Below, one piece after another: positions 2,762 through 11,885 of a DNA stretch of 42,262 nt. The position numbers and the translations under genes are program-made. A model generated the notes under the pieces. It did no database searches. It saw only the letters and a program-made list of their open reading frames with translations, and was not told the DNA's origin. Numbering within the stretch: position 1 is the stretch's first letter; each line of letters starts with the position of its first letter. The DNA lies in the NCBI GenBank assembly GCA_017651245.1, contig JAGCDQ010000011.1, forward strand, positions 1 through 42,262, given 5' to 3'. Origin of the DNA: Bacteroidaceae bacterium (GTDB lineage Bacteria; Bacteroidota; Bacteroidia; Bacteroidales; Bacteroidaceae).

Positions 2762-2844
2762 AAAAAAACGTGATGCTTCTTATGCGTTAAGCTGGGGTAT
2801 GCCTAGGAACTTGGGCCCCATCCTACCTTTAAGAATGCATCACG
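2762..2844 (-). terminator. Intrinsic terminator of the structured RNA
   Basis: On the minus strand, CGTGATGCATTCTT (2844-2831) pairs with AAGAAGCATCACG (2781-2769), 13 bp with one bulged A. Seven T residues follow directly (2768-2762). The 49-base loop holds the 3' arms of the larger fold, so terminator and full fold cannot form together. Confidence 0.65.
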
Positions 2845-3016
2845 CCTATGGCGAGAATGCATTGCTATAAACAGGTAGGAATGGGAATGCATATTCCTGC
2901 ACCCCAAATCTCTATTACTTCAGAGCGTTTCTTATCCCAATTTGTTTCCTAGGCATATTGGCTTAACGCGAAATAATAGCGAATACTTTCATTATAGTCC
3001 GGATTTCTCCCCGAAC
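2762..3016 (-). ncRNA. Structured RNA, 6S-like or attenuator leader
   Basis: Read on the minus strand, the element is closed by GCGTTAAGC (2969-2961) with GCTTAACGC (2792-2784), then by a perfect 12-bp stem (TATGCCTAGGAA, 2958-2947 with 2809-2798). Inside are a small hairpin (GGAAT/ATTCC, about 2884-2897), a stem CATTCCTACCT with AGGTAGGATG, and an apical hairpin made of ATGCAT copies around GCC/GGC. The core is 186 nt: a long closing stem, an asymmetric central bubble and an apical stem. That outline resembles 6S RNA, but I cannot confirm homology. It has its own promoter (3023-3053) and terminator. Because the methylase gene follows directly, it could instead be an attenuator leader. The start near 3016 is inferred from the promoter. 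Confidence 0.55.
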
Positions 3017-3022
3017 CGATGG

Positions 3023-3053
3023 CAAAGGTAGAGAAAACTTTGGGAACCACAAA
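3023..3053 (-). promoter_or_regulatory. Bacteroidota promoter for structured RNA/methylase
   Basis: On the minus strand TTTG (3053-3050), a 19-base spacer and TACCTTTG (3030-3023) match the Bacteroidota primary sigma factor consensus TTTG-N19-TAnnTTTG. Predicted initiation is near 3016. Confidence 0.65.
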
Positions 3054-3130
3054 GCATTTTCTCATTAAATCTCAAAAAAGTTGTTTATATTTAAAAATAC
3101 GGTGATTTTTTCACGAATTCTTTAATTAAA

Positions 3131-3162
3131 TTTGCGAAATCTTATTTCTTGTTGTATATTTG
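3131..3162 (+). promoter_or_regulatory. Promoter of the RloA-RloB-Argonaute operon
   Basis: TTTG (3131-3134), a 20-base spacer and TATATTTG (3155-3162) fit the Bacteroidota consensus. The ATG follows at 3196, giving a leader of about 27 bases. It is divergent from the minus-strand promoter, with about 80 bases between the two. Confidence 0.7.
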
Positions 3163-3195
3163 CACTCAAAATTCGATTATTTAAATAGTACGACC

Positions 3196-4491
3196 ATGAT
3201 ACAGGAGTTTCAAGTACAGAATTTCTATAGCATCAGGGAGCGGCAAACTATTAGTTTTGTGCCGACCAACGATGGTAATATGCGTGGACAATACGTACAC
3301 GAAGTGGCTGAGGGAGTGGAACTCCTGAAGATTGGCATCGTGTACGGTAGTAATGCCAGTGGTAAGACCACCTTGCTCCAAGCCCTGTCGTTTTTCCGTA
3401 GCGTTATGCTCAACAAGCCCGAATCAAAGAATGAGGGCATGGGGTACTTCCCGTTCCTGCTCGACAAACACAGCAGGGATGAGCATTCGCAGATGCAGAT
3501 GACGTTCTGGCTGAACGGAGAGAAGTATGTCCTGAACCTGGAATTCGATAGCAAGCGAATCTACGAAGAATCGCTGATGGTATATACCAGCGCTCGTCCG
3601 ACCTCTCTTTACAAACGTGTCTATCAATCGGAGTCCGACCATACGGAGGTGATTTTTGGCAATAAGGCTGGCATTGACAAGGCCACTCAGCGTGCTATTG
3701 AAGGCAACACTACCAATAATTGCACGGTGATGGCTGCCTTCGGGCAATCGAATGCTCACGTTTCAAAACTGAACGATGTGTTTGATTTCTTCTTTGCTGG
3801 TTTACAGAACATCTTGACTCCAAAGGACTATCTGTCGTATGATGTTAAAAACGAACTCCGTAACGATAAAGATGGCAAGAAAAAGCGCTTCCTGCTCCAG
3901 TTGCTAAAGGCCAGCGACTTTAATATCGTTGACATGACACTCGACGAGCGCGAAGAGCCCATCACGCCTGAAATGGAGAAGACCATCAAGAGTGCTCCGA
4001 TATCCGAGGAAGCCAAGATAGAGATGCTTAAGCGTGGCACCATCAAGTTTGATGATATTATGTTCAGACATACTGGTGAGGATGGCGAATACGATTTGTA
4101 CGAGCATCTGGAGTCGGCTGGTACGCATCGGTTCCTGGGCATGTCGATCGTGTTGTACTACGTATTGCACGAGAACAATTTCATCCCCATCGACGAGATT
4201 GAGACCAGCATCCACTATGAACTGCTTGCCTATTTCATCAAACTGTTCCTGGCCAACAGCGAGGGTTCGTCACAGTTGCTGATGACCACCCACGACATCA
4301 ATCTACTGAACGAGGACTTTATTCGCAGGGACATAGTGTGGTTTACCGATAAGAGTAGCCAGGGTGCTACGCAGCTGAAGCGACTCTCTTCACTCGGCCT
4401 GCACAAGACGATGAATCCATACAACGCCTACAAGCAGGGCAAGTTGGTGGACCTGCCATTCCTTGGAAGTATTTACCTTGAAACAGAGTAG
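3196..4491 (+). CDS. RloA-like AAA/ABC-class ATPase
   Basis: The 431-aa ATPase has an SMC/ABC-type layout. Walker A is GSNASGKT (residues 51-58), the signature-like ESAGTHRF lies in the second half, Walker B is PIDEIE (331-336) and an H-loop TTHD follows. It matches the AAA_21-type ATPases paired with RloB, and is related in organisation to AriA of PARIS and to OLD-family ATPases. I start at the ATG at 3196. An in-frame upstream TTG at 3160 lies inside the promoter -7 box and is rejected. The stop is 3 bases before RloB, so the two are probably made and act together. Family knowledge suggests a sensor or regulatory ATPase in anti-phage defence; the trigger is unknown. Confidence 0.85.
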   Translation: MIQEFQVQNFYSIRERQTISFVPTNDGNMRGQYVHEVAEGVELLKIGIVYGSNASGKTTLLQALSFFRSVMLNKPESKNEGMGYFPFLLDKHSRDEHSQMQMTFWLNGEKYVLNLEFDSKRIYEESLMVYTSARPTSLYKRVYQSESDHTEVIFGNKAGIDKATQRAIEGNTTNNCTVMAAFGQSNAHVSKLNDVFDFFFAGLQNILTPKDYLSYDVKNELRNDKDGKKKRFLLQLLKASDFNIVDMTLDEREEPITPEMEKTIKSAPISEEAKIEMLKRGTIKFDDIMFRHTGEDGEYDLYEHLESAGTHRFLGMSIVLYYVLHENNFIPIDEIETSIHYELLAYFIKLFLANSEGSSQLLMTTHDINLLNEDFIRRDIVWFTDKSSQGATQLKRLSSLGLHKTMNPYNAYKQGKLVDLPFLGSIYLETE

Positions 4492-4494
4492 CAC

Positions 4495-5322
4495 ATGGCA
4501 GTCAAGAAGAGTATAGCAATCATTGGCGAAGGTGAGACGGAGTGGTGGTACTTCGACACGCTCCGCATCGCATGTCGCTATAAGTTCAAGGTGGCGCCTG
4601 ACTTTCCTCAGCATTCGGACATTCCCCACATGGCGAAGCTGGCAGAGGAATACGTCAAGCGCGATACTGACTACGTGGTATGCCTTGTGGATATGGATCG
4701 CCTGCTGAGGGTGCCTGCAGAAATGGCTACCTATCAGCATTTGAAGAAGAAAAGCCCGCATAACGTTATTTGGATTGAGACCAATCCGTGCACGGAGTTC
4801 TGGTTTCTGCTCCATTTCCTGCCACAGCTTACCTCCAAGCATTACGAAACTTACGAGGATGTGCTGCCCGACTTGCAGCATTATATGCCTGGGTACGAGA
4901 AGACGGCACGCTATTTCAAGAAGAACAATCTGTACAAGTACCTGACGGAGAATGGTGACCTACAACGGGCCATCAGCTATGCCGAGGAACTAACCCGGCT
5001 GAGCGAAGCATCGCCCGACGATAAAATAGCATACAGCCAGATGCATTTGGTGTTTAATCTGATTGCATCGATGGATGAAGAGGAGGCTGATAAAAATGAG
5101 CAAAAAACGGGAAATCAAAATCGAAATAAGGAAAATCGGCGACAAATTATCGATTTTATCGCCGATAGGAATATTTCAGATGCAAAATCCGTTTCAAAAG
5201 CCATCGGTCTCAAACCCTCAAGAACCCGCGACTACCTCAAACAACTCGTGGAGGAAGGTGTTCTTGAGATAGAGGGTGAGTATAAAAATCGGAAGTATAA
5301 GATAAAGAAGGTTAATAGTTAG
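4495..5322 (+). CDS. rloB: RloB-family TOPRIM protein with winged-helix tail
   Basis: The 275-aa protein has an RloB/TOPRIM domain: GEGETE (residues 11-16), acidic pair in VDMDR (65-69), and NPCTEFWFLLHF (97-108), a block typical of RloB and DUF4435 proteins. These acidic residues normally bind a divalent metal for nucleic acid cleavage. After about residue 195 a Lys/Asn/Glu-rich linker leads to a winged-helix domain: NRRQIIDFIADRN, then KSVSKAIGLKPSRTRDYLKQ and a basic wing KNRKYKIKK. This tail is not part of the RloB family as I know it. The gene lies 3 bases after the ATPase and 1 base before the Argonaute. Likely role: the nuclease effector, or DNA-binding adaptor, of the system. Confidence 0.82.
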   Translation: MAVKKSIAIIGEGETEWWYFDTLRIACRYKFKVAPDFPQHSDIPHMAKLAEEYVKRDTDYVVCLVDMDRLLRVPAEMATYQHLKKKSPHNVIWIETNPCTEFWFLLHFLPQLTSKHYETYEDVLPDLQHYMPGYEKTARYFKKNNLYKYLTENGDLQRAISYAEELTRLSEASPDDKIAYSQMHLVFNLIASMDEEEADKNEQKTGNQNRNKENRRQIIDFIADRNISDAKSVSKAIGLKPSRTRDYLKQLVEEGVLEIEGEYKNRKYKIKKVNS

Positions 5323-5323
5323 C

Positions 5324-7618
5324 ATGACAGAAGAAAAATTATTTCTCAACACGCTCACATTCGAGTATCCGAAGAAACCCGTGAAGTTCTTCTTCTCTGA
5401 GAAGGATGATGCCGAGCGCAAGAGCACTCGACTCAAATCTCCCGTGCTCGTTCCAAAAGAGGTTAAACAAACTCAAAAATACATTGACTTATTTGCAGGT
5501 TGCGGTGGATTGACTTTGTACACAACTTTCGATTTGCCGACAGAAGAATTTGATGCAATTCATATAGATTTTAACGAGCCCGAAAACGAATACTTGGTTA
5601 AGAAATACTACAACCACAAATTAGAGAAGTATTTCAGATTTTATGATGATGTTGTAGTAACAAAGTCGGACATAACCGATGACATACAAGTATGGATTCT
5701 CAGCAATGGGGAAAAGAAGCAGTTCACCCATAATGGCAAGCAATATGAACTTATGGAGATGGACAGATTCACTTTGAGGGTGAAATTTGACCGCTTCAAC
5801 AACAGACCTTACCTTTTGGTTGCCAATGATAGGCCGGCACAATTACTCAATGTTCCTCTTGCAAAACTCTTTAGCGAATGCCCTAGCGATCCTTTCATGG
5901 TTCAGGCTGGAATAACACCAAGCATGATTAATTATGTCATGACTCGCGAGGTGCGTAAGAACAAAGACGATAAAAACTATGTTGTTCGCAAGATTGACAG
6001 GTATGAATATCTGCAAAGCCACAACATGTATTGTCCGCCTGAAACAACTCGTCCCATTCTAGGCGGAGAACTGAAAAGATACTTTGGGTTGGATAGACAT
6101 GAGGAGCCACGTTCTTTCGAAAGCAAATACATCAAATACAGGGAGAAGATTGAAGCATTCCGCAAGAGATTCCTAAACACAGAGGACATAGAGAAGATAT
6201 TCCACCATCTTGCATACAACTTCACCGAGGTTAATCCGTTGCAGATCGGACAGACAAGCAGTTCCAAGCGTATGCTCAAATTTGGCAAGGATGAAAATGG
6301 TAATGCTTTCAAAAATCCTCGTCAACAGATGGGAGTGAATTTTGGCCCCAACATAAAGTGTCCACACACCGATGTACGGATGATTTTCATCTTTCCCAAA
6401 AGCAGCCTTGCTGAAGCACGTGGCTTAATCCAACACATGCACGATGGTGGATATAAAGGTCAAAGCAAGCCACTCTCGAATTACATCGGAAGTAATGTGA
6501 GTTATGCTGACAGCTCATTCCACATTCAGTTCAAAGACGAAACAAATCCTGTTCCAGAAATAGAAAAAGCACTTCAAGGTGATTGCTATAGGAACAAAGA
6601 CGAACGTATCAAATATGTTGGTATCTATATTTCTCCTATCCATAAATATGCATCGTCCCGCGACACTAAAGAGTGTTACTACAAGATTAAAGAACTGCTC
6701 TTGAAATACGACATCCCCACACAATGTATTGACAGGGAGAAGATGAACACTATGATTGACAAGGACAATCGAACCAACAAAGCTAATTTCGTATATACCC
6801 TTCAAAACATGAGTGTGGCTATTTGTGCAAAGTTAGGTGGCTCGCCTTGGTTACTTGATGAAACAGAGAAGAAAGAACTAATTATTGGCATTGGCGCATT
6901 CCGAAGCGATAATCAGCAATATATTGGTGCGGCTTTCTCATTTGATAACACAGGTGTTTTCAACGATTACAGCTACTTTCAGAAGTCTGAACTGGACGAG
7001 TTGGTTGGTGCAATCAAGATGGCTATCATGCATTATTCTGCTGTCAACAATCCGCCGGAGCGTATCATCATCCATTATTACAAGAAGATAAGTCGTAAAA
7101 GAGAGTTCAAAAAGGTAGAAGACATGCTTCACAGCCTTAACCTTGATGTGCCTGTCTATGTCGTAACCATCAACAAAACGGAGTCTGAAGATATTGTGTT
7201 GTTCGATGAAGAAAGCGCTTACTCATCTTACAATTATCAGACACGACAGAACGAGTCAATAAAAAGCCTTATGCCTTATAGTGGTAAGTGGATTAACCTC
7301 GGTCCCTCAAAAGATGGACATCGATACCTCCTTTGCAATAACACGCGATACGAGAACGAACGATTCAACGCAATGGATGGATTCCCCTTCCCAGTCAAAC
7401 TGACTATAGCCTGCCCTAATCGAAATGATGAAATTGAGACACCTGTGATTCAGCAATTGATTGACCAGGTATATCAGTTCAGCCGCATTTATTGGAAATC
7501 GGTGAAGCAGCAAGGATTGCCTGTTACCATCAAATACCCAGAGATGATAGCTGAGATTATGCCTCATTTCAACGACAAGACGGTTTATACCGAGAGTAAC
7601 TGTTTGTGGTTTTTGTAA
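5324..7618 (+). CDS. ago: Long prokaryotic Argonaute with inactive PIWI domain
   Basis: The 764-aa protein has full-length Argonaute layout. The N-terminal part contains TLTFEYPKKP and LYTTFD. The MID region around residues 445-475 has ECYYKIK and PTQCID, matching the Y-K...Q pattern that holds a guide 5' end. The PIWI domain spans about residues 500-764 (AKLGGSPWLLD, ELIIGIGAF, IIIHYYKK, C-terminal LWFL). The catalytic Asp positions appear lost: Gly524 in IGIGA where GxD is expected, and HYY at 584-586 where an Asp usually follows. It probably binds guide and target but does not cut, like long-B Argonautes that signal to a partner. Residues 53-63 carry YIDLFAGCGGL, an exact cytosine-methyltransferase motif I. 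It starts 1 base after RloB, and a 336-aa gene follows after 12 bases. Confidence 0.85.
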   Translation: MTEEKLFLNTLTFEYPKKPVKFFFSEKDDAERKSTRLKSPVLVPKEVKQTQKYIDLFAGCGGLTLYTTFDLPTEEFDAIHIDFNEPENEYLVKKYYNHKLEKYFRFYDDVVVTKSDITDDIQVWILSNGEKKQFTHNGKQYELMEMDRFTLRVKFDRFNNRPYLLVANDRPAQLLNVPLAKLFSECPSDPFMVQAGITPSMINYVMTREVRKNKDDKNYVVRKIDRYEYLQSHNMYCPPETTRPILGGELKRYFGLDRHEEPRSFESKYIKYREKIEAFRKRFLNTEDIEKIFHHLAYNFTEVNPLQIGQTSSSKRMLKFGKDENGNAFKNPRQQMGVNFGPNIKCPHTDVRMIFIFPKSSLAEARGLIQHMHDGGYKGQSKPLSNYIGSNVSYADSSFHIQFKDETNPVPEIEKALQGDCYRNKDERIKYVGIYISPIHKYASSRDTKECYYKIKELLLKYDIPTQCIDREKMNTMIDKDNRTNKANFVYTLQNMSVAICAKLGGSPWLLDETEKKELIIGIGAFRSDNQQYIGAAFSFDNTGVFNDYSYFQKSELDELVGAIKMAIMHYSAVNNPPERIIIHYYKKISRKREFKKVEDMLHSLNLDVPVYVVTINKTESEDIVLFDEESAYSSYNYQTRQNESIKSLMPYSGKWINLGPSKDGHRYLLCNNTRYENERFNAMDGFPFPVKLTIACPNRNDEIETPVIQQLIDQVYQFSRIYWKSVKQQGLPVTIKYPEMIAEIMPHFNDKTVYTESNCLWFL

Positions 7619-7630
7619 TCTGGATGTCCT

Positions 7631-8641
7631 ATGAACAGCTTTGATCTGAAGAAAGTGCATGACCTGATTATGTTTCGAGATGTCTGCACGACTGATAATG
7701 CCTATATGACAGAGGCCAGTAGTTTGCCTCGCATAGAATTGGAAACGGAAGCGTTGTATGTGCTAACGCCCAAAATGTCTGTGCTCTTTACGCCAAAGCT
7801 GCGATATTATAGACTCGTTGTCGAAAACGAAATCAATCGCCACATTAATGCTGCAACAGAGTTGCTGGAGGCAGATGGAACAGAAGAACTGACAAAGTTT
7901 GTCTTAAAGAAGACACGCGAAGCAGTTGCCACCTTGATGAACGAAGCTAAGCGACTGACAATATTAAATAATGGAGATAAGAATTGGGAAAACATTATCT
8001 CAGAAAAGCCGTCTATTCCAAGACACCTGAAAGCGGCTACTGAACTTGCCGTGTATAGTCATTATGTAATTGCGGAGTTGGCTCGTTGCTGGCTTGAGTT
8101 GCAAGACAGATACGCTTATGTTATCGGTGAAGCAGGTTGTTACGACGTATCTCTGTTCTATACTTCAATCGTTGGGCTCAATCCTGACAAAGAGTTTGAA
8201 TTGAAGCGGTCGGAAAAGTACGAAGAAGAAGCAAAAGGATTTAGGAAGGTTCGGATGGACTGCTGTTTCCTCTACGACAACGAAGAATACTTTGCCATTG
8301 CCATACAGGAGTTCACGAATAAGTTACATGCTCACCATCTTATACCTGAAGATTTAGATTTAAAGCAAATGGAGAGTTTGTTCCGTGGGCATTCGTGTAG
8401 GACAAAGTATAAATGGTTGGGCCCCAACCATGTACTCACCCACATTATCAAAGGCTTAACCAAGGATGACAATCCTGTTATCACTTCATGGCCAGAAGGT
8501 ACTTCAAAATGGGAAGTTGTGTCTTGCCGATTTGTGGATAAAGATAACAATCCCATACCAAACATCCGTCAGGAAAAGGCCAGAAAGGGTTCCAAAACGG
8601 TGGTCAAGGAGGTCGTTGAAACTCTTGCTGGGTATCTCTAA
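7631..8641 (+). CDS. Unknown protein in the Argonaute operon
   Basis: This 336-aa protein starts 12 bases after the Argonaute stop and is the last gene of the operon. I do not recognise its family. It is soluble with no signal or membrane segment. Residues about 70-130 are helical and charged (ENEINRHINAATELLEA, FVLKKTREAVATLMNEAKR). The middle has a conserved-looking ELAVYSHYVIAELARCW. The C-terminal third carries FRGHSCRTKYKWLGPNHV and a basic stretch ending in ETLAGYL. The KYKWLGPNHVLTHII segment is faintly like the W-x-G region of RteC-type regulators, but that is too weak to name it. No nuclease, TIR, SIR2 or membrane effector motif is visible. By position it is a candidate effector or accessory of the Argonaute. 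Confidence 0.75.
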   Translation: MNSFDLKKVHDLIMFRDVCTTDNAYMTEASSLPRIELETEALYVLTPKMSVLFTPKLRYYRLVVENEINRHINAATELLEADGTEELTKFVLKKTREAVATLMNEAKRLTILNNGDKNWENIISEKPSIPRHLKAATELAVYSHYVIAELARCWLELQDRYAYVIGEAGCYDVSLFYTSIVGLNPDKEFELKRSEKYEEEAKGFRKVRMDCCFLYDNEEYFAIAIQEFTNKLHAHHLIPEDLDLKQMESLFRGHSCRTKYKWLGPNHVLTHIIKGLTKDDNPVITSWPEGTSKWEVVSCRFVDKDNNPIPNIRQEKARKGSKTVVKEVVETLAGYL

Positions 8642-8651
8642 CAAAATATAC

Positions 8652-8687
8652 ACTTACGACGCAATCTACTCGTCGTAAGTTTTTCTT
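8652..8687 (+). terminator. Terminator of the Argonaute operon
   Basis: ACTTACGACG (8652-8661) and its exact complement CGTCGTAAGT (8671-8680) are separated by 9 bases and followed by TTTTCTTTT. It lies 11 bases after the stop of the last operon gene. Confidence 0.85.
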
Positions 8688-8713
8688 TTGCAATTTCTAA
8701 AAATTTTTCATAG

Positions 8714-8751
8714 CCCATATCTTGCTTGTAATTAGCAAGGTATGGGTTTCT
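8714..8751 (+). terminator. Second strong hairpin after the operon
   Basis: CCCATATCTTGCT (8714-8726) pairs with AGCAAGGTATGGG (8734-8746), 13 bp with one G-U pair and a 7-base loop, followed by TTTCTTG. It stands 34 bases after the first terminator. It could terminate read-through in both directions or mark an old module end. Confidence 0.65.
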
Positions 8752-8861
8752 TGTTTGTTGCTACTACGATTTACTACGGCATTTTTTTGAGGGTGTCGTA
8801 GATGCGCTTCTTGGGATATTGCCGATGGTCAGCAGAACTCAATCTGTCTGGCCGAAGCAAT

Positions 8862-9368
8862 ATGAAAAATAGTAAAAGAACTCGCGTTGGGTCTGAAGCA
8901 CAGTATGGCCCACGCCTCGCAGGAGAAATCCTGCACAACTATCTTGAGAACAGCAACGAACCTTTAGCAGTTGCTTATCGTGAACACACATCCGATGCAG
9001 AGGCAGAGGATGAAACCGATGGACTCTTCAAGGACTTCTTTCCTGACACACATCTAGATGTCGACCTGAAACTGCTGACTCGAAAGCCTTGCCATCTGCC
9101 TGTTGGAGCGATGCTTGATGGTGCTATAACACGTGATGGCGTAGATCATTTCTGCTTCATTCAGAACACCTTTGAGAAAAAGAAGGTGGATAGTCGTAAT
9201 TCTCATGTTTACAAAGGTTTGTATATTAACGTAAACAAAAGTAAAGATGGTAAGCTTTATCCAACTTTCAGAAGTCCTCATTATACTAAGGTATTCACTT
9301 TCCCTAACTTTTGCAGAAAAGCTGCCGAGGAGTTGTTGGCGATTGCTGGCTTTTTAGAAGAGAATTAA
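8862..9368 (+). CDS. Conserved hypothetical protein before replication module
   Basis: From the ATG at 8862 the product is 168 aa. The frame is open from 8802, but the first 20 codons there (MRFLGYCRW...) have no supporting context, and the MKNSKR start looks natural. Recognisable blocks are EAQYGPRLAGEI, NEPLAVAYREH, FKDFFPDTHLDVDLKL, DHFCFIQN and HVYKGLYINV, ending GFLEEN. I have seen similar proteins next to VirE/DUF3987 genes in Bacteroidales, but no function is known to me. It is soluble with no catalytic motif. Its position just before the repeat-flanked AT-rich region suggests a link with the replication-like module. Confidence 0.65.
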   Translation: MKNSKRTRVGSEAQYGPRLAGEILHNYLENSNEPLAVAYREHTSDAEAEDETDGLFKDFFPDTHLDVDLKLLTRKPCHLPVGAMLDGAITRDGVDHFCFIQNTFEKKKVDSRNSHVYKGLYINVNKSKDGKLYPTFRSPHYTKVFTFPNFCRKAAEELLAIAGFLEEN

Positions 9369-9388
9369 CCACGAAGAGGAAATGACTT

Positions 9389-9559
9389 AACTTCAGTTAC
9401 TTCAGTTCTTCAGTTCCATTTTAAGGGGTGCGCATTCTCTTTTTTCTATTTATTAATATTTATAAATACTTAATAATCAATATATTATATATAGATATAT
9501 AGTAGAATAAGGGGGTTGTGATACCCTCGAAAAACAACTGAAGTAACTGAAGAACTGAA
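9389..9559 (+). other. Inverted AACTGAAG repeats around AT-rich core (possible origin)
   Basis: Three CTTCAGTT-type units stand at 9391-9415 and three AACTGAAG units in opposite orientation at 9535-9559. The 15-base CTTCAGTTACTTCAG (9391-9405) is the exact complement of 9538-9552. The enclosed stretch 9440-9510 is almost pure A/T. It lies just before a DUF3987 gene and a primase. Repeats plus an AT-rich unwinding region next to replication genes suggest an origin or the operator of the module; neither is proven. Confidence 0.45.
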
Positions 9560-9572
9560 GAAACCAAAAAAA

Positions 9573-10919
9573 ATGTCTTACACTAAAAAGAAAAAGAAAA
9601 TGATTTACGATATCACAAAATCCACATGTCCAGTCGAGATGCCACATCTCGGTCGTGGACTTGAGGCACTAAGCCTCTTGCTTTCCCCTACAAGCAAAGA
9701 CATGCATCCTGTGCTTTTCCCTATGGAGTTTCCCATCTGGGGCGCCCACATCAGCGATGCTGAATTCCAGTACCCCAGCGGGCAATGGCTCGAACTGTGC
9801 GGACAGCAGGCCGTGCAGGTGGCTGCAAGTGCCGACAACAAGGGGCAGCTGGGACTGATGGTGGAAGGAGCCAACCGCGATTACCGTGCGGAAGATGAGG
9901 CGGAGATGAAGAAGTATAACCAGTATGCACGCAACTACAAGAAACGCTCTCAGACGAAAGACCGTCCTGACGAGGTGTTCCCCTTGCTGCATATCCTTCC
10001 TGCCAACACGACACTCCCAGGATTTCTGAGGGCTCAGATGAAGGCTCAGGAGAATGGTGGAATCACCACATTCATCGACGTGAAGGAGATAGAGCAGCTT
10101 GATGCCCTGTGCGGCTCCCATAAGAAAGTGTCTGAGATGTGCCGCTTGATTTACGACCGTGAGATTTACTCTGCCCTTCGAGCAACGGTTGATGGGGTCA
10201 GTGGTATTTGTCTGCTCAGAACCAACATCACGGCGTCGGCAACTCCCGGACGTGCAAGAAATTTTTTTAAGAATAACTTGCACGACGGCACCTTGGGCAG
10301 AATGGTGTTCAGCTACAAGCCTCGCAGCAGCCGCTCTGGTCGGATTCCTCGCTTGGGCAACAAGCTCGATGAGGATTTCTACGAGCAGATGGATAAGTAT
10401 TTGTCGCGTCTCGACAGCTGCAAGGGACGCTATGTAATCAAACCCTTGAACAAACTCATACAAAGCATCTCTGATGATTTGGCTGAGTTTGCCGACCTGA
10501 CGGACAACGACACCTTGTGGAGCTATGGCAAGAGAAGCTTGATTTCTGCATGGAAAGCAGGTTGCATCATGTGGGCTCTCAATGAGCAAAGCTGGAGTCG
10601 TGGAATGGCTGACGCCGTGGAATACTTGGTTTGGCATGACCTTTGGTCTAAATGGCAGGTGATGGGAGACTTGCTGAAGGAAGGCGACACCAGTACCAAA
10701 GAGGTTGCCAAGAGTGGACCTGCCAACATGCTGGACGCTCTGGTGGGACCAACCTTCAACGAACAGCAGCTGGACGCACTCCGAGAGAAACTTGGTAAGC
10801 CCATTGGAGCTGCAACCAAGAAGCAGTTAAGCGTTTGGACTGCCAGAGGTCTCATTGAATACTCGAACCAAACGGGACTCTATTCTAAGACGGAAAAGTA
10901 TCTGAAAGGAAAACAGTAA
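9573..10919 (+). CDS. DUF3987 (VirE-type) replication-associated protein
   Basis: The 448-aa protein matches the DUF3987 pattern: GQWLELCGQQAVQVAAS, NKGQLGLMVEGANRDYR, then PLLHILPANTTLPGF and a core with LRTNITASATPGRARNFF and GTLGRMVFSY. DUF3987 proteins are ATPase/helicase-like factors found with primases on plasmids, prophages and integrated elements. The usual glycine-rich Walker A is degenerate here (AASADNKGQL), and the protein is at the short end for the family, lacking a VirE_N domain. An ATG at 9600 (MIYDITK) is an alternative start. The primase follows after 3 bases, so they form an operon. Confidence 0.7.
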   Translation: MSYTKKKKKMIYDITKSTCPVEMPHLGRGLEALSLLLSPTSKDMHPVLFPMEFPIWGAHISDAEFQYPSGQWLELCGQQAVQVAASADNKGQLGLMVEGANRDYRAEDEAEMKKYNQYARNYKKRSQTKDRPDEVFPLLHILPANTTLPGFLRAQMKAQENGGITTFIDVKEIEQLDALCGSHKKVSEMCRLIYDREIYSALRATVDGVSGICLLRTNITASATPGRARNFFKNNLHDGTLGRMVFSYKPRSSRSGRIPRLGNKLDEDFYEQMDKYLSRLDSCKGRYVIKPLNKLIQSISDDLAEFADLTDNDTLWSYGKRSLISAWKAGCIMWALNEQSWSRGMADAVEYLVWHDLWSKWQVMGDLLKEGDTSTKEVAKSGPANMLDALVGPTFNEQQLDALREKLGKPIGAATKKQLSVWTARGLIEYSNQTGLYSKTEKYLKGKQ

Positions 10920-10922
10920 GCT

Positions 10923-11885
10923 ATGGATAAGTTTGAATTGCAAAAGCTCCGCGACCTCCCGATAGAGGGGGTCGCAGAGCGACTTGGACTCGAAGTGAAG
11001 ATGCACATGGCACTGTGCCCGTTCCATGACGACCACCATGCAAGCCTGTCGTTCAAGGTGAGCCGGAACACGTTCCGATGCTTCGTCTGTGGAGAGTCGG
11101 GTGGGACGATTGACTTGGTGAAGGGAGTGCTCCATAAGGATTTCTTGGATGCTTGCCGTTGGCTGGCTGATGAAAACAATGTGATAGTTCAAGAGTTCAA
11201 GGTTCAAAGTTCAAGGATTCAAGAGAAACCGTTCGACGCCAGTCGGTACGAACGTTTCTTTGAACGTCCGTGGTTGTCTATAGAAGCCCGCAAGTTTCTC
11301 TTTGAGGAAAGGAAGTTGGATGAGCGGGTGGTGCGTTGGTGCCGCTTGACTTCGTGGCAAGACAAGAAGGGCGTGAACTGGTTGCAGATTCCTTACTATA
11401 ATCAGGAAGGAAAGTTGGTGGGAATACAGAACAGGAACTTAGGGTTCAAAAAGTTCAAGGTTCAAGAGGTTCAAGGTTCAATTTCCAACTGTCAATTGTC
11501 AACTGTCAACTGTCAACTGGTTCCTCGTTTCCGTTTTCCGCAGGGTTCGCAATGCAGCATCTACAATCTGCCTATCCTGAAACTGCTACAACCCGGTGAA
11601 GATCTCTACATCACGGAAGGATGCTCTGACTGTTGGGCAATGCTCTCGGCAGGGCACAAGGCAATCGCCATTCCGTCAGCGACTTTGCTGAAACCGAAGG
11701 ATGTGGAACTGCTCTCAATTGTCAACTGTCAACTGTCAACTCGCTTCCACATGTTTCCCGACCGCGACGAGCCAGGCGAACGCCTCTTCCTCCAACTCAA
11801 GGAGCTGCTGCCCAATCTGGAACACCACCAGCTGCCTTTGGGTTGCAAGGACTACAGTGAATACTATTTGAGGTTGGAGATTTGA
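10923..11885 (+). CDS. CHC2 zinc-finger and TOPRIM primase
   Basis: The 320-aa protein is a small DnaG-like primase. The CHC2 zinc finger is Cys32, His35, Cys53, Cys56 (CPFHDD ... CFVCGES). A TOPRIM domain follows, with YITEGCSD and metal-binding FPDRDEPGE. It would make RNA primers for replication of an integrated element. Three short repeat arrays are inserted in frame: near residues 88-100 (KVQSSRIQE), 177-200 (VQEVQG then NCQLSTVNCQL) and 265-274 (IVNCQLSTR). These match interspersed repeats seen elsewhere in the window and look like late insertions that kept the frame. The last one falls just before the TOPRIM DRDE motif. Confidence 0.82.
   Translation: MDKFELQKLRDLPIEGVAERLGLEVKMHMALCPFHDDHHASLSFKVSRNTFRCFVCGESGGTIDLVKGVLHKDFLDACRWLADENNVIVQEFKVQSSRIQEKPFDASRYERFFERPWLSIEARKFLFEERKLDERVVRWCRLTSWQDKKGVNWLQIPYYNQEGKLVGIQNRNLGFKKFKVQEVQGSISNCQLSTVNCQLVPRFRFPQGSQCSIYNLPILKLLQPGEDLYITEGCSDCWAMLSAGHKAIAIPSATLLKPKDVELLSIVNCQLSTRFHMFPDRDEPGERLFLQLKELLPNLEHHQLPLGCKDYSEYYLRLEI
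11185..11222 (+). repeat. GTTCAA repeat inside primase
   Basis: Variants of GTTCAAG/GTTCAAA occur about five times in tandem within the primase reading frame, encoding the unusual Gln/Val/Lys text VQEFKVQSSRIQ. Confidence 0.7.
11445..11521 (+). repeat. GTTCAAG and GTCAACT repeats inside primase
   Basis: A GTTCAAG array (11445-11480) is followed by CAATTGTCAACTGTCAACT-type units (11488-11520). Both keep the primase frame open. Confidence 0.7.
11715..11743 (+). repeat. GTCAACT repeat inside primase TOPRIM region
   Basis: CAATTGTCAACTGTCAACTG-type text repeats the unit seen 220 bases earlier and encodes SIVNCQLST just before the DRDE metal motif. Confidence 0.7.

Follow-up and report, generated by a model that had tools for sequence, protein, structure and literature searches.

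Long-B pAgos have been described in the two-gene systems BPAN, BPAS and BPAM, in which the partner of the Argonaute is a nuclease, a SIR2 protein and a membrane protein, respectively, as set out in the sections of Song et al. 2023 (PMC10620215) that are drawn on here. These systems were found via the gene next to the Argonaute. The same sections mention a VirE-N (og_54) gene that lies upstream of long-B Argonautes and whose role still needs explaining. All long-B Argonautes lack the catalytic tetrad and nearly all belong to the YK type, according to the portion of Ryazansky et al. 2018 that is used here. The other described systems closest to the present locus are AbiL (RloAB) and PARIS (AriA-AriB), both of which involve an ATPase. 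Here we describe a locus in which an RloA-RloB pair directly precedes a long-B Argonaute gene and a fourth gene, referred to below as D. We consider it rather probable that this locus is a composite one, in which the functional unit consists of Argonaute and D, a pair carried on Bacteroidota integrative islands, and in which RloAB is independent.

The window, that is, the whole stretch of 42,262 nucleotides that was analysed, is an entire contig, one of 77 in a Bacteroidales genome assembly that is 86% complete. The four genes lie on its forward strand. A preliminary description of the locus had reported gaps of 3, 1 and 12 bases, a single promoter ahead of rloA, hairpins behind the fourth gene and the identities of the gene products, and in all of these respects it was borne out. 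The promoter, of the form TTTG-N20-TATATTTG, which we take to be the Bacteroidota consensus, is found at 3131..3162 and is the sole strict match within 2801-9000. The first gene, rloA (3196..4491), encodes an abiLi-like ATPase of 431 aa whose start is probably the ATG at 3196, in register with homologues; it matches AAA_21 in Pfam and AbiLi in PADLOC (227.8 bits), and AriA models also match. Its stop codon (4489-4491) is followed after 3 bases by the ATG of rloB at 4495. This second gene, encoding an abiLii-like TOPRIM-type protein (RloB PF13707, 94 bits in Pfam; AbiLii, 76.6 bits in PADLOC; no AriB model of the DUF4435 type matched in either), is made up of a body that matches free-standing RloB of about 200 aa (4495..5082) and a C-terminal winged-helix tail fused to it (5083..5322), possibly a DNA-binding addition to the TOPRIM-type nuclease. 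A single base separates the RloB stop codon (5320-5322) from the ATG of the Argonaute gene (5324..7618, Piwi in Pfam), and the Argonaute stop codon (7616-7618) is followed after 12 bases by D (7631..8641), for which no Pfam family lies above cut-off. The hairpins stand 3' of D, and the 192 nt after D fold with z = -4.8. It is possible that in this one genome the four genes are transcribed jointly.

Two further gene groups adjoin the locus. On the minus strand, at 450-2761, an EcoRI-type adenine methyltransferase gene adjoins a GmrSD_N/HNH nuclease gene, probably as a restriction-modification pair. At 8802-11885, 3' of D, there are a 188-aa gene, a DUF3987-like gene and a gene resembling CHC2-zinc-finger primases; this module recurs after D in two related loci (L058, L059), and in a third (L061) it is inverted and located before Argonaute.

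The third gene encodes a full-length long-B Argonaute (764 aa) with MID and PIWI domains, as seen from PADLOC, Pfam and alignment to RsAgo, EcAgo and AfPiwi. The PADLOC full-length pAgo model PDLC02385 spans residues 4-764 (645.9 bits), and Piwi (PF02171) covers residues 447-746. The segments 519-526 (IIGIGAFR) and 582-588 (IIHYYKK), in which the catalytic DEDX positions are presumably located, contain no acidic residue in an alignment made to inactive Argonautes only, and the protein is, from its sequence, probably catalytically inactive. The 5'-phosphate pocket is kept: residues Y452, K456, Q467 and K503, which are invariant in eight sequences, correspond in a profile alignment to Y123, K127, Q137 and K163 of AfPiwi, the residues that we take to bind the guide 5'-phosphate. 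The window Argonaute also carries the YK-type MID motif in the form given in the part of PMC6299218 consulted. Relatives of the Argonaute were detected in 5 of the 399 family genomes and in 32 of the 393 from the order; for the scan of contigs, the best 80 of 228 matches were kept. Two observations concern the region upstream of Argonaute in other loci. A sigma-54-like promoter pattern, TTGGCAT-N4-TTTG[AC], precedes Argonaute in L061 (39 nt), L066 (48 nt) and L065 (28 nt), that is, in 3 of 90 loci versus 2 of 9600 control windows, the pattern having been picked after the sequences were viewed. In L045, L046, L049 and L110, a gene fusing cytidine-deaminase to HATPase_c_4 (RecG-like) lies upstream, at a distance of roughly 2 kb from the midpoint of Argonaute, and its Pfam domains were seen for L046 and L049.

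D has a helical N-terminal half and a variable C-terminal half. Nothing in Pfam, PADLOC, NCBIfam or PHROG matches it above cut-off, and no 19-residue window has a mean hydropathy above 1.6, so that it contains no hydrophobic span. Its structure is predicted with confidence (pLDDT 87.1, pTM 0.58) but gave no informative structural match, and D has no recognisable enzymatic domain. By profile search, on which the link rests, D is a distant homologue of DUF6617 (PF20322), a family that is matched by 13 of the 26 members of the D alignment and not directly by the window protein. Among Argonautes of at least 51% identity, D is directly downstream in 11 out of 11, with a spacing of 12 nt in six of them as counted from longest-frame starts. 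These 11 Argonautes form one clade (a quick tree of 95 gives it support 100), and the loci with D downstream are one clade in both the D tree and the Argonaute tree. Of 399 family genomes, four contain a full-length match to the window D, each together with the Argonaute, and a fifth match covers the C-terminal part only. Between the window and L058, dN/dS is about 0.04 for Argonaute and about 0.09 for D, with dS near saturation, which points to purifying selection on both genes. The members of the pair can nevertheless recombine apart, as the window D (7631-8641) and that of L059 (12308-13315) are 96% identical and the Argonautes 83%.

Behind D there are inverted boxes (8653..8803, forward strand), namely CTTACGACG at 8653-8661, CGTCGTAAG at 8671-8679, TTTACTACG at 8770-8778 and GTCGTAGAT at 8795-8803, which flank a hairpin at 8712-8748. 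They were recognised only through comparison with L058 and L059 and are not significant within the window by themselves, their count being reached by 58 of 58 control windows. A similar layout of boxes and hairpin, alike in geometry and different in sequence, follows D in L059, L062, L063, L064 and L065, and the boxes may be binding sites of D.

The association of D with Argonaute extends to loci in which the two genes are far apart. Searched with profiles built from D, 27 further loci proved to carry a homologue (330-340 aa) on the upstream side of Argonaute, the island order being integrase, DUF6617, HTH_17, BT4734-like, DUF3987/PriCT_2, cargo and Argonaute. Primase-type genes are present in all 27 and an integrase in 23 (the remaining ones end at the flank or the contig), and mnmE precedes the integrase in 16, the islands being inserted directly behind mnmE, for example in L135, L090 and L133. 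On these other Bacteroidota islands DUF6617 thus stands behind the integrase, and Argonaute follows 4-21 kb further on. Islands with BT4734-like genes upstream of Argonaute probably correspond to the VirE-N (og_54) set mentioned above. Whole-genome searches of 26 genomes whose loci are without D within 10 kb of Argonaute found D in 22. In 18 of the 22 it is on the contig of Argonaute (contigs were paired by their lengths, which for L087 disagree slightly), on the same strand and 10.1-21.1 kb upstream, in every case with integrase, HTH, BT4734 and DUF3987 genes beside it; in the other four it is on another contig (L085, L114) or has no placement (L073, L075). No D was found in four of the 26 (L071, L077, L078, L111), nor near more divergent Argonautes such as that of L009. 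Across the order, 15 of 247 genomes match the D profile, eight of them without such an Argonaute. Five of the seven strong matches (E < 1e-30) are accompanied by the Argonaute, one of these being a fragment (p 6.5e-5 against the prevalence of 32/393), and two genomes (G500, G626) have strong D matches and no such Argonaute.

Distance matrices of 54 Argonaute-D pairs have a correlation of 0.90. In the 37 islands where all six genes are present, the Argonaute-D correlation is 0.91, close to that of the primase partners BT4734 and DUF3987 (0.93), and Argonaute correlates at 0.40 with integrase, 0.56 with HTH, 0.70 with BT4734 and 0.67 with DUF3987. D correlates at 0.50 with HTH and at only 0.39 with integrase, although the latter is adjacent. 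Given the four other island genes, the partial Argonaute-D correlation is 0.83 (reached by 0 of 1000 permutations); after thinning at 85% Argonaute identity, the remaining 23 islands give 0.85 and a partial value of 0.79, and the window clade gives 0.85 over 10 loci. Among 159 island pairs whose integrases are more than 80% identical, 53 are alike in both Argonaute and D, 83 differ in both and 23 are discordant. Together with the correlations, these counts indicate that Argonaute and D tend to be swapped together despite the genes between them. The suggestion that the last gene works with Argonaute is therefore supported far beyond the window, by the 11 of 11 adjacent cases, the 22 of 26 genomes and the correlation over 37 islands. 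It is important to note that co-inheritance is not proof of contact; on balance, we lean towards Argonaute and D being a functional pair.

The RloA-RloB genes have a distribution of their own. Of 251 family genomes, 53 contain RloB relatives. In all 13 RloAB loci that were fetched, comprising 12 stretches from 11 of the 53 RloB genomes (mostly best matches) and one plasmid, RloA is directly upstream of RloB, and no Argonaute or D was detected in any of them (E 1e-4). On the Phocaeicola vulgatus plasmid (L155, NZ_CP096966.1, 4689-9194), RloAB stands directly before TIR, SIR2 and TIR genes, which by content are Thoeris-like. RloA and RloB profiles were also run against 104 Argonaute stretches, of which 96 are distinct and 85 of these 96 extend 2 kb or more upstream. 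RloAB abuts Argonaute only in the window, with no adjoining pair in the other 95 distinct loci, and the sole match outside the window is in Natronoflexus pectinivorans (L119), with RloAB roughly 3.7 kb downstream of Argonaute, behind a helicase gene. In one genome (G047), Argonaute-D is on contig 5 and two RloAB pairs are on contigs 57 and 60. RloA-RloB is better read as a free-standing, independent AbiL-type abortive-infection pair that has been placed in front of Argonaute-D.

The junction between the two pairs bears traces of such a placement. DNA homology to the 10 close loci begins at 5324-5334 in six of them (L058-L061, L063 and L064, the last from Parabacteroides distasonis An897), that is, at most 10 bases from the Argonaute ATG; it begins later in three (L062, which is cut by its contig end, L065 and L067), L066 has no DNA alignment with the window, and none of the alignments reaches the RloAB genes. 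The window RloB has 275 aa, and its winged-helix tail is absent from the 13 fetched RloBs, which have 195-210 aa except for one of 248 aa with an extra part at its front; the comparison covers these 13. Across rloA and the body of rloB, GC3 runs at 0.63-0.65 (0.65 in the latter); it drops to 0.38 in the tail and is 0.47 in Argonaute and 0.46 in D. The best composition change point, at 5020, falls inside rloB (reached by 0 of 300 shuffles). The start of homology at the Argonaute ATG and the different composition of the RloB tail make the RloAB-Argonaute join look secondary. RloAB may have become fused, in frame, to what was left of an earlier gene in front of Argonaute.

These results bear on the proposal of the preliminary description that the four genes form a single system, in which guide-loaded Argonaute frees RloB, the nuclease, from the ATPase RloA. 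In favour of it, a single promoter is followed by genes spaced 3, 1 and 12 bases apart, and no strict promoter of the Bacteroidota type precedes Argonaute, which makes co-expression with RloAB plausible in the window. But a single adjacent case among the 96 distinct Argonaute loci, 13 RloAB loci without Argonaute or D, pairs on different contigs in G047, the plasmid pair in front of TIR and SIR2 genes, and the composition shift within rloB all count against a four-component system, which we regard as very improbable. The preliminary description had itself named the constant occurrence of RloAB and the Argonaute pair in separate loci elsewhere as an observation that would overturn it; this is nearly what is seen.

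A different account holds that D is a core island gene for replication, regulation or excision, and that Argonaute is a passenger whose correlation with D reflects shared island descent. The position of D in the islands, right behind the integrase and before the primase module, agrees with this, as do the boxes after D and the primase-like genes that are still 3' of D in several close-clade loci. Yet D follows the distant Argonaute (4-21 kb) far more closely than the adjacent integrase, also after correction for the other island genes. Moreover, the slot behind the integrase often contains other genes. Related integrases turned up in 21 of 119 genomes; in the best 12 of these, D comes next in three, two of which have Argonaute, and another gene occupies the slot in nine, one of them with an 88%-identical integrase. 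One genome (G884) has a D-like gene and no Argonaute, and in another (G875), whose slot is taken by a different gene, Argonaute is weakly matched elsewhere. None of the 11 stretches of the window clade yielded a related integrase, and D is still kept with Argonaute there. We thus hold a core-gene role to be unlikely. Less likely still is that D is an antitoxin-like or transcriptional regulator of Argonaute that acts on the boxes and has no direct part in immunity: the recurrence of boxes of similar geometry and the variability of the C-terminal half of D fit such a role, but the boxes follow D even where Argonaute is kilobases away, and their number in the window does not exceed that of the controls.

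We return to Argonaute and D as the functional unit. Most likely, D is an adaptor or effector of Argonaute. In this proposal, Argonaute would be the sensor, binding 5'-phosphorylated small guides in a pocket that appears intact by alignment; the guides would be RNA, by extension from the long-B EcAgo, and would lead it to complementary DNA on an invader, be it a plasmid, a phage or a rival island. Being presumably unable to cut, Argonaute would act through D, the obligate partner, which would carry or recruit the response; co-inheritance of the two is observed, and physical contact between them is inferred. The helical half of D may contact Argonaute, and the variable half may act on or choose nucleic acid. 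Each of these steps is less certain than that the two form a functional pair. More speculatively, D might also bind DNA at the boxes, either to control its own gene or in island replication.

A literature search, which mostly covered sources other than subscription papers and preprints, returned no paper on Argonaute with RloB and none on DUF6617; for Argonaute with AbiL, none on such a system was seen, judging by titles or the beginnings of abstracts. A two-component long-B Argonaute-DUF6617 system is thus absent from the literature searched. The chances seem to us evenly balanced that it is a new immune system, with its genes far apart on many islands and in one operon in Bacteroidales, and with DUF6617 as a new class of effector or adaptor that has a swappable nucleic-acid-recognition half. 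DUF6617 would then be a named partner for long-B Argonautes left unexplained in Song et al. 2023. As this likely partner is mostly 4-21 kb away, surveys based on neighbouring genes would have missed it. The window also illustrates that tight packing can mislead, with two unrelated defence pairs joined across a 1-base gap.

Compared with BPAN, BPAS and BPAM, the locus has in common a probably inactive long Argonaute with the 5'-phosphate pocket kept and, in the window clade, a partner gene directly downstream; it differs in that the window D has no Pfam family above cut-off and no hydrophobic span. Half of the aligned D members match DUF6617, whereas the window D is linked to it indirectly. The first two genes have the adjacent AAA_21 ATPase and RloB that characterise AbiL in the part of PMC10440598 relied on here, but the window RloB has an additional winged-helix tail. 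With PARIS the pair shares the logic of an ATPase and a TOPRIM-type nuclease as well as the AriA matches of gene 1, but gene 2 is RloB/AbiLii and not AriB. Finally, the islands resemble trmE/mnmE-targeting islands such as SGI1, as these are described, in having an integrase that adjoins mnmE; SGI1 belongs to another phylum and has a different gene content.
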